NCBI GenBank assembly: GCA_023268935.1
Contig: JALRKK010000054.1
Location: forward strand, 1-64,000
DNA length: 64,000 nt
Source of the DNA: Glaciecola sp.
GTDB taxonomy: Bacteria; Pseudomonadota; Gammaproteobacteria; Enterobacterales; Alteromonadaceae
Direction of reading: 5' to 3'
In this document: one piece after another, positions 28,614-61,344 of the stretch
Layout: each line of letters opens with the position of its first letter
Position numbering within the stretch: position 1 is the stretch's first letter
Translations under genes and position numbers: made by a program
The notes under the pieces: generated by a model
The model's database searches: none
Told to the model about the DNA's origin: nothing
The model's input: the letters and a program-made list of their open reading frames with translations, nothing else

Positions 28614-28628
28614 TGTAATAAAACTACA
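28614..28628. promoter_or_regulatory. candidate HexR operator between malQ and gapA
   Basis: TGTAATAAAACTACA, matches TGTAATWWWATTACA-type HexR palindrome with one mismatch. Confidence 0.75.
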
Positions 28629-30627: not shown

Positions 30628-30663
30628 CAAAAAAACGCACATTATCCTCTCAATAATGTGCGT
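30628..30663 (-). terminator. intrinsic terminator of the Entner-Doudoroff operon
   Basis: reverse strand ACGCACATTAT-tgagagg-ATAATGTGCGT then T7. Confidence 0.85.
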
Positions 30664-36430: not shown

Positions 36431-36445
36431 TGTAGTAAAATTACA
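36431..36445. promoter_or_regulatory. candidate HexR operator in zwf/hexR divergent promoter
   Basis: TGTAGTAAAATTACA. Confidence 0.78.
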
Positions 36446-37510: not shown

Positions 37511-37525
37511 TGTAATATAATTACA
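37511..37525. promoter_or_regulatory. candidate HexR operator upstream of pykA
   Basis: TGTAATATAATTACA, fully palindromic. Confidence 0.82.
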
Positions 37526-37578: not shown

Positions 37579-39021
37579 ATGATACTAAATCGTCGCACCA
37601 AAATTCTTGCCACTCTCGGCCCTGCCACTGATTCTCAAGAGATATTAGAGAAACTCATCGCCGCTGGCGCCAATGTAGTGCGCATGAACTTTTCGCATGG
37701 CACTGCTCAAGATCACATTGACCGAGCAACACGGGTTCGAGCTGCAGCCAAAAAGCTCAATAAGTACGTTGGTATTCTTGGCGATTTGCAAGGACCTAAG
37801 ATTCGTGTAGCACGCTTTAAAGGCGGTCCTATCTATTTGAATATTGGCGATGCATTTGTACTTGATGCTAGTTTAGATAAAGACGCAGGTGATCAACACT
37901 CAGTCGGCATTGATTACAAAGACTTACCCAATGACGTAGTACCAGGTGATGTGTTATTACTGGATGATGGACGAGTCCAATTAATTGTTGATCGAATTGA
38001 GGGTAGCGCCATTTATACAACGGTATCGGTTGCTGGAAAGTTGTCAAACAACAAAGGCATCAATAAACAAGGTGGTGGCCTTTCTGCGGCGGCGCTAACC
38101 GATAAAGACAAAGAAGACATCAAGACTGCGGCACAAATTGGCGTAGATTATTTAGCCGTATCCTTCCCGCGCTCGGGTGCGGATTTAGAATACGCAAGAG
38201 AACTTGCTCGTGCTGCAGGATGTAACGCACAAATTTGTGCCAAAGTTGAGCGCGCTGAAACCGTTGCGACGGACGAGGCCATTGATGACATCATTCTTGC
38301 TTCCGATGCAGTGATGGTTGCGCGTGGTGATTTGGGTGTTGAAATCGGCGATGCCGAACTGGTTGGCGTACAAAAAAAACTGATTGCTCGCTCTAGACAA
38401 TTAAACAAAATAGTGATCACCGCTACGCAAATGATGGAGTCGATGATCGAAGCGCCACTTCCGACCCGTGCCGAAGTGATGGACGTCGCCAATGCCGTGT
38501 TAGATGGTACCGATGCAGTCATGTTATCCGCTGAAACTGCCGCGGGCAAATTTCCAATTGAAACTGTTGAAGCTATGGCTCGCGTATGTATTGGCGCAGA
38601 AACGCACCCAAGCGTGAACGAATCTAAACACCGCATGGATGAAAAATTTGAATCCATCTCAGAAACCGTAGCAATGGCTGCAGTTTATGCTGCCAATCAC
38701 CATTTTAATATCAAAGCCATTGTTGGCTTAACCGAGTCGGGTAACAGCACTAAGCTCATGTCACGCATCACGACTAACCTACCAATTATTGGTTTGTCTC
38801 GTCACGATACAACGCTTAATGCAATGGCATTGTACCGAGGCGTTAAACCTGTGTTTTTTGATTCGACGCAATCACGCCCTGGTCAAATCACGCAAGATGT
38901 TGTGAATGCACTAAAGGCTTATGGTTATCTTGCTGAAGGAGATAAATTCATCTTCACTTATGGCGATACCATGGAAACCATCGGTGCCACCAACACGTGC
39001 AAAATCGTAACTGTGAATTAA
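37579..39021 (+). CDS. pykA: pyruvate kinase
   Basis: [36 protein letters not shown]. Confidence 0.98.
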
Positions 39022-39046
39022 CTATCACCACCAAGTTAACAAATAA

Positions 39047-39102
39047 TTAACATTTCCCACATTATCCGTTATGATGTCTCCTTTAAAAATAAGGAGACAT
39101 CA
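39047..39102 (+). promoter_or_regulatory. sigma70-like promoter fused to SD-containing inverted repeat
   Basis: TTAACA (39047-39052), 17-nt spacer, TATGAT (39070-39075); inverted repeat GATGTCTCCTT (39073-39083)/AAGGAGACATC (39091-39101), ATG at 39103. Confidence 0.65.
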
Positions 39103-40275
39103 ATGGAAAAGCAATTCGACATAATTGTCTTTGGCGCCACTGGATACACTGGCAAATTAGTCTGTGAATATTTGCGTGACCACTACGCCAATAGTGATGT
39201 TAAGTGGGCCATAGCCGGTCGTGACGAGGCGAAACTCACCCACACCAAATCCACCTTAAACCTTGCTGAACACATCGACGTGCTGGTCGCTGACAGTCGA
39301 GATCCACAAGCCCTGCTGCCGCTGGTGACCAGTACCAAAGTCATCCTCACCACTGTAGGTCCCTATCAGCATTATGGAGATGTACTCATTCGTTTATGCG
39401 CAGAAATGGGCACTGATTATGTCGATCTGTGTGGTGAGCCAACTTGGATGCGCCAGCAAATTGATGCCCTTTCTAAAACTGCCAAAGAAAGTGGTGCTCG
39501 GATTGTCCATTCGTGCGGATTTGATTCAATCCCTTTTGATTTAGGGGTATTCTTTTTGCAAGATTTAGCATGGCAATATTTCAACAAGCCCATGACCAGT
39601 GTCAAGTGTCGTGTGCGCAAGATGAATGGCAAATTTAGTGGTGGCACTGCCGCTAGCCTACAAGCAACCATGGCCGCGGCAATGCAACAACCAGAGTTGC
39701 TCGGTTGGCTCAAAGACCCATTTAGTCTCGCGGATGGTTTTGTTGGCCCAGAGCAACCCAAAGGGAATGAGATCCATTTCGATGAGGCGCTTAATTCTTG
39801 GGTCGCGCCGTTTATCATGGCCAGTATCAATACCAAAAACATACATCGCTCTAACGCCCTACTCGACCATTACTACGGCAAAGATTTTGTGTATGACGAA
39901 ATGATTTTGACTGGTCCTGGTGAACAAGGAGAAAAAATTGCCCACCATGTCGCCAACGATAAAAGTTTATCAGGCCCTGACGCCCCAAAACCGGGTGAAG
40001 GCCCGACTCAAGAAGAACGAGAAAATGGCTCTTATGATGTATTATTCATCGGTACTCTGAATGAGCATGAAGTGAGAGTCAGCGTTGGTGGACACCTTGA
40101 CCCAGGCTATGGTTCGACTTCACGTATGCTGGCTGAAGCAGCTTTATGTCTGGCTCATGATAATTTGGCTACGTTGGGAGGTGTATATACACCTGCTCCT
40201 GCGATGGGAGAGGCTCTGATTAAACGCCTGATTGAACATGCTGGGCTGTACTTTGAAGTTGAGGAGCGGCATTAG
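39103..40275 (+). CDS. saccharopine dehydrogenase NADP-binding-domain reductase (trans-acting enoyl reductase-like)
   Basis: FDIIVFGATGYTGKLVCEYL Rossmann motif, DYVDLCGEPTWMRQQID, SCGFDSIPFDLGV. Confidence 0.88.
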   Translation: MEKQFDIIVFGATGYTGKLVCEYLRDHYANSDVKWAIAGRDEAKLTHTKSTLNLAEHIDVLVADSRDPQALLPLVTSTKVILTTVGPYQHYGDVLIRLCAEMGTDYVDLCGEPTWMRQQIDALSKTAKESGARIVHSCGFDSIPFDLGVFFLQDLAWQYFNKPMTSVKCRVRKMNGKFSGGTAASLQATMAAAMQQPELLGWLKDPFSLADGFVGPEQPKGNEIHFDEALNSWVAPFIMASINTKNIHRSNALLDHYYGKDFVYDEMILTGPGEQGEKIAHHVANDKSLSGPDAPKPGEGPTQEERENGSYDVLFIGTLNEHEVRVSVGGHLDPGYGSTSRMLAEAALCLAHDNLATLGGVYTPAPAMGEALIKRLIEHAGLYFEVEERH

Positions 40276-61329: not shown

Positions 61330-61344
61330 CGTAATAAAATTACA
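61330..61344. promoter_or_regulatory. candidate HexR operator between ppsA and ppsR
   Basis: CGTAATAAAATTACA. Confidence 0.75.

Follow-up and report, generated by a model that had tools for sequence, protein, structure and literature searches.

How can a chromosomal gene be kept apart from the transcription of a co-oriented neighbour when nothing resembling a terminator separates the two? This question is raised by a locus in Glaciecola sp. (GenBank assembly GCA_023268935.1, contig JALRKK010000054.1), which lies within the window, the stretch of 64,000 nucleotides analysed here. The pyruvate kinase gene pykA (37579-39021, forward strand; Pfam PF00224/PF02887; NCBIfam PRK05826 and TIGR01064, above cut-off), presumed to be the source of read-through RNA, ends in a stop codon at 39019-39021. 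It is followed 81 nt downstream, in the same orientation, by a gene (39103-40275, forward strand) for a 390-aa protein with a saccharopine-dehydrogenase-type NADP-binding domain (PF03435, E=3.4e-13), referred to here as the reductase-like gene. A sequence-only reading of this DNA had seen no strong terminator after the pykA stop, and no terminator-like site was found in the 81-nt gap (39022-39102). Orthologs of the reductase-like gene are present in all 10 genus genomes examined, and no mobile element or transposase was seen at the locus.

What occupies the gap is a compact element spanning 39047-39105 of the forward strand. The -35-like hexamer TTAACA (39047-39052) is followed, after 17 nt, by the -10-like hexamer TATGAT (39070-39075), exactly where the sequence-only reading had placed a promoter; together they match the consensus at 10 of 12 positions. 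From within the -10 runs the inverted repeat TGATGTCTCCTT-TAAAAAT-AAGGAGACATCA, with a 5' arm (39072-39083), a 7-nt loop (39084-39090) and a 3' arm (39091-39102). This repeat had been described as perfect over 11 bp and as sharing 3 nt with the -10. Perfect it is (the arms are 100% complementary), but the A before the ATG also pairs with T39072, which makes the arms 12 bp and the overlap 4 nt. The coordinates also bear out that the 3' arm contains the whole Shine-Dalgarno (SD) sequence AAGGAG (39091-39096), with the 5' arm as its complement (anti-SD); the 3' arm directly adjoins the ATG at 39103. A stable stem downstream of pykA might be taken for a terminator or attenuator of that gene, an explanation with next to no probability, as the stem lacks a U-run and runs straight into the ATG. 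It is followed by ATGGAAAAGC, in agreement with the earlier view that this is not a standard terminator.

On balance, as far as can be judged from sequence, the element appears to act on this chromosomal metabolic gene as a start-site-dependent translational insulator. RNA arriving from upstream, whether by read-through from pykA or from a start upstream of about 39075, would carry both arms and fold into a hairpin of 12 bp in which the SD is buried up to the start codon, and such RNA would go untranslated. Transcription from the gene's own sigma-70-type promoter would instead be expected, from promoter spacing, to start 6-8 nt after the -10 (39081-39083, forward strand), giving an RNA that lacks the 5' arm and could be translated. 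The reductase-like gene would thus depend on its own promoter and be uncoupled from pykA transcription.

Predicted energetics follow the same division. The cost of opening the SD is 15-16.8 kcal/mol for RNA begun anywhere tested upstream (-200 to -31), drops stepwise as the 5' end of the RNA moves through the 5' arm, and reaches about 2-3 kcal/mol for starts at 39081-39083. With the complete 5' arm in the RNA, it is 15-16 kcal/mol in all three species that have the element. In the long RNA, the predicted probability that the SD is unpaired is 0.001-0.008. Because about 50 nt separate the pykA stop from the hairpin, ribosomes translating pykA should not melt it.

Such an arrangement is hard to attribute to chance. 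In first-order Markov simulations of the window, the expected number of perfect repeats with 12-bp or longer arms and loops of 3-10 nt is 0.075, and five occur; the other four look, by inspection of sequence and T-runs, like terminators. RNA folding gives z-scores of -8.2 when the hairpin is taken by itself and -5.4 across the full intergenic region. A survey of 464 kb from the window's genome and one sister genome took in 531 ORFs (minimum length 100 aa) and found no perfect SD-covering stem of at least 7 bp besides those of the reductase-like gene and its ortholog. The window also holds an 11-bp inverted repeat between convergent genes (30635-30663), probably a bidirectional terminator.

Conservation of the element is narrow. 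Its 10-bp core was found in 3 of 399 family genomes, namely that of the window (G000), G004 and G009, all of the same genus and always with the core before the reductase-like gene ortholog. In the remaining seven genus members, the gene is present without the hairpin; in six of these, the gene sits behind the 3' end of pyk with a different upstream sequence, while G002 has other DNA upstream. The element is a clade-specific feature, and the conservation among orthologs on which the sequence-only reading had made its proposal depend holds in three species of one genus but not across Alteromonadales. As two of the three genomes are closely related, with about 90% of their fourfold sites identical, the number of independent sequences is effectively two. 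These two are far apart: fourfold-site identity between G000 and G009 is 65/158 (41%) in the reductase gene and 57/187 (30%) in pyk, which is near saturation.

Across this distance, the 5'-arm core ATGTCTCCTT (identical in all three species), AAGGAGACAT, the TTAACA (also kept in G004), the -10 as TATNAT (TATTAT in G009) and the 17-nt spacing have been retained. All eight 5'-arm bases outside the -10 are conserved, with P = 8e-4 to 7e-5 if fourfold identity is taken as the neutral rate, and P=0.06 if the yardstick is the identity of the upstream intergenic DNA (70%), which is itself probably constrained. That the repeat arose by chance or is short-lived, kept only through shared descent, is thus highly improbable: its presence in only 3 of 10 genus genomes, as only two divergent sequences, fits such an origin, but repeats this long, expected 0.075 times per window, should be far rarer still beside an ATG, and the arm is conserved at near-saturated divergence. 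Within the spacer, where most positions are not kept, ATTATCC (39061-39067, between the -35 and the -10) is also retained to G009; a second -10 could include it, or it could belong to a protein site.

The pattern of change bears on whether the repeat works as RNA or as DNA. Length change falls in the loop, so that the total core repeat measures 27, 26 and 28 bp across the three species, with predicted hairpin energies of -18.3, -17.2 and -16.0 kcal/mol. An outer G-C pair has become G-U in G004, a pair that is tolerated by RNA and not by a DNA palindrome, and in G009 the outer pairs have been lost and loop-side pairs gained. The core itself is invariant in all three species and so offers no compensatory change. 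In each species the -10 overlaps the 5' arm, and with a predicted start 7 nt later the stem would be lost, giving SD opening costs of 2.2, 1.8 and 1.5 kcal/mol in G000, G004 and G009, respectively. The register of promoter and arm has thus been kept: in all three, whatever the loop, RNA from the native start would leave the arm out.

The sequence-only reading had offered a DNA operator as its alternative. In the form considered here, a dimeric repressor on the palindrome over the -10 and start would block transcription and the overlap with the SD would be incidental. This is unlikely, although the perfect, symmetric palindrome extends from the -10 to about +20, where operators classically lie, and both arms are conserved. 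A repeat whose total length is 26, 27 or 28 bp is unusual for a dimer site, and the 3' arm coincides exactly with the stretch from the SD to the start codon. An arm and promoter that stay conserved while the loop changes length speak more for an RNA hairpin than for a DNA operator of fixed spacing. Moreover, the palindrome is single-copy in its own genome, even with 3 mismatches allowed, and a search of the 10 genus genomes for the arms TGTCTCC/GGAGACA at spacings of 3-16 found no second site; a genome-wide regulon, considered as a separate possibility, was rejected for this lack of further sites. The sole regulator gene among the neighbours examined is hexR, whose family has a known motif, TGTAAT-ATTACA, that differs from the palindrome. 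Masking of the SD dependent on the start site, as first proposed, seems the best-supported reading of the sequence, given the conserved arm, the kept register, the drifting loop and the opening cost.

A further explanation places the hairpin in the normal transcript, as a regulated or temperature-sensitive mask of the SD or as a stabilising 5' stem. A second promoter-like pair exists, TTAACA at 39036 and CATTAT at 39060-39065 (18-nt spacing, 9 of 12 matches); its transcript would begin near 39072, with the hairpin complete. The CATTAT is kept in G004 but lost in G009, a species that retains TATNAT and its 17-nt spacing. A perfect 12-bp stem of -18.3 kcal/mol would also be very stable for a thermosensor. 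Rfam models over 39071-39104 gave only sub-threshold chance matches, and an Rfam thermometer or riboswitch was rejected on these grounds. Overall, a hairpin carried by the normal transcript is improbable.

If the element insulates, the identity of the upstream gene suggests from what. Upstream lies, besides pykA, the gene for a HexR-type regulator, hexR, and HexR-like sites precede both hexR (36431-36445) and pykA (37511-37525); pykA is probably under HexR control. The pattern searched for is the family motif given above, and at up to 3 mismatches it matches 13 times in the whole window vs 4.3 expected. With such sites before both genes, it is plausible that the purpose of the element is to insulate the reductase gene from sugar-regulated pyk RNA. 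In a stronger version, which is rather improbable, pykA read-through would supply untranslatable reductase mRNA and also run across the promoter of the gene itself, and in this way HexR-dependent (glycolytic) transcription would actively reduce the enzyme; this would be a bacterial counterpart of the eukaryotic switch based on long undecoded transcripts. Two further HexR-like palindromes (TGTAAT..ATTACA) lie elsewhere in the window, at 28614-28628 and 61330-61344.

Comparable devices are known from mobile elements and phages. In IS10-type transposase genes, RNA from upstream is not translated because structure masks the start. The sequence-only reading had likened the element to those that protect transposases, and the logic is indeed similar. 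However, the window locus shows no transposase or visible mobile element, its downstream gene encodes a PF03435 domain protein, and the closest precedent is phage T4. The T4 genes e (lysozyme), soc and 49 have hairpins that sequester the ribosome-binding site, with late promoters in the 5' strand, and lysozyme synthesis was reported to be 100-fold lower from the structured long RNA (PMC3014915). As is proposed for the present element, long upstream RNA of these T4 genes folds a stem over the SD and a promoter at the 5' strand yields a short, stemless RNA. The T4 genes, however, rely on TATAAATA late promoters and infection timing, whereas the present element is chromosomal, lies before an unrelated gene and has a sigma-70-type promoter (TATGAT or TATTAT with the -35 TTAACA). 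As TATAAATA is absent here, the element is not a member of the T4 group, which leaves the similarity of mechanism unaffected.

The T4 device is also documented for homing endonucleases of T4-like phages, HNH enzymes among them, and the cases include I-TevI, I-TevII, I-TevIII, segB and Aeh1 mobE (PMC2988022). More I-TevI was made from upstream promoters once 5'-strand sequence of its hairpin had been deleted (reviewed in PMC3014915). The logic, that of a gene inside the transcripts of other genes, is shared; those are mobile phage genes, whereas the reductase-like gene is chromosomal and has orthologs across the genus. Searches of the open-access literature found no described promoter-in-hairpin example for a chromosomal bacterial housekeeping gene. 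If the proposed mechanism is true, an ordinary metabolic gene of the chromosome is insulated in about 60 bp, without a terminator, by a device known from phage late genes and from homing endonucleases. Neighbours in the same orientation could then be co-transcribed and yet not co-expressed, and operon predictions based on RNA coverage could mislead. It would also offer a compact, portable insulator.

Similar layouts were sought more widely. Among 99 genomes, CTCCTT-loop-AAGGAG before an ATG occurs in 16 places (three being the reductase-like gene) vs 12 matches for the reversed control; with no enrichment over that control, general use of SD-masking hairpins in the order was rejected. A stem of at least 10 bp before an ORF of at least 100 aa was found in these genomes at the reductase-like gene only. 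In viral scans, a -10 plus SD hairpin occurred in 4 test vs 4 control contigs, which is no numerical enrichment; two of the four test hits (L105 and an HNH endonuclease, L108) lie directly before ORFs of >200 aa, as no control hit does. In unrelated mobile settings, gene starts carry either the exact core of the repeat or a variant fused to a -10. The same layout is found at the start of this HNH endonuclease gene (L108, TATAATATCTCCTTTTAAAAGGAGATAAGATG) and, in the same register, on a phage transcription-regulator gene (L055, TATAATGTCTCC), and an SD hairpin is present on rolling-circle replication initiator genes of Burkholderiaceae (L039, L053); these four cases were picked from few hits, without statistical enrichment. 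In L039, L053 and L038, the ATG sits at the end of the 3' arm of the SD hairpin, which in L039 and L053 precedes the replication initiator genes; another open frame in the same orientation lies close by on the upstream side.

Globally, the exact repeat is found in Proteus and others, in most cases off a start codon. Across several Proteus loci (L042-L045, L047 and L051), a repeat of 26 bp, ATGTCTCCTTTATATAAAGGAGACAT, is conserved, with 27 bp in L045; it lies about 30 nt before the ATG, away from both start codon and SD. Within the genus of the window, three sister species (G006, G001 and G003; L089, L090 and L091) carry a different 15-bp inverted repeat, TAGTTGACTTGTTAA-11-TTAACAAGTCAACTA, in the same pyk-reductase gap. 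It is perfect or near-perfect, off the SD and unique in each genome, and one of its pairs reads T-A, A-T and G-T across the three species.
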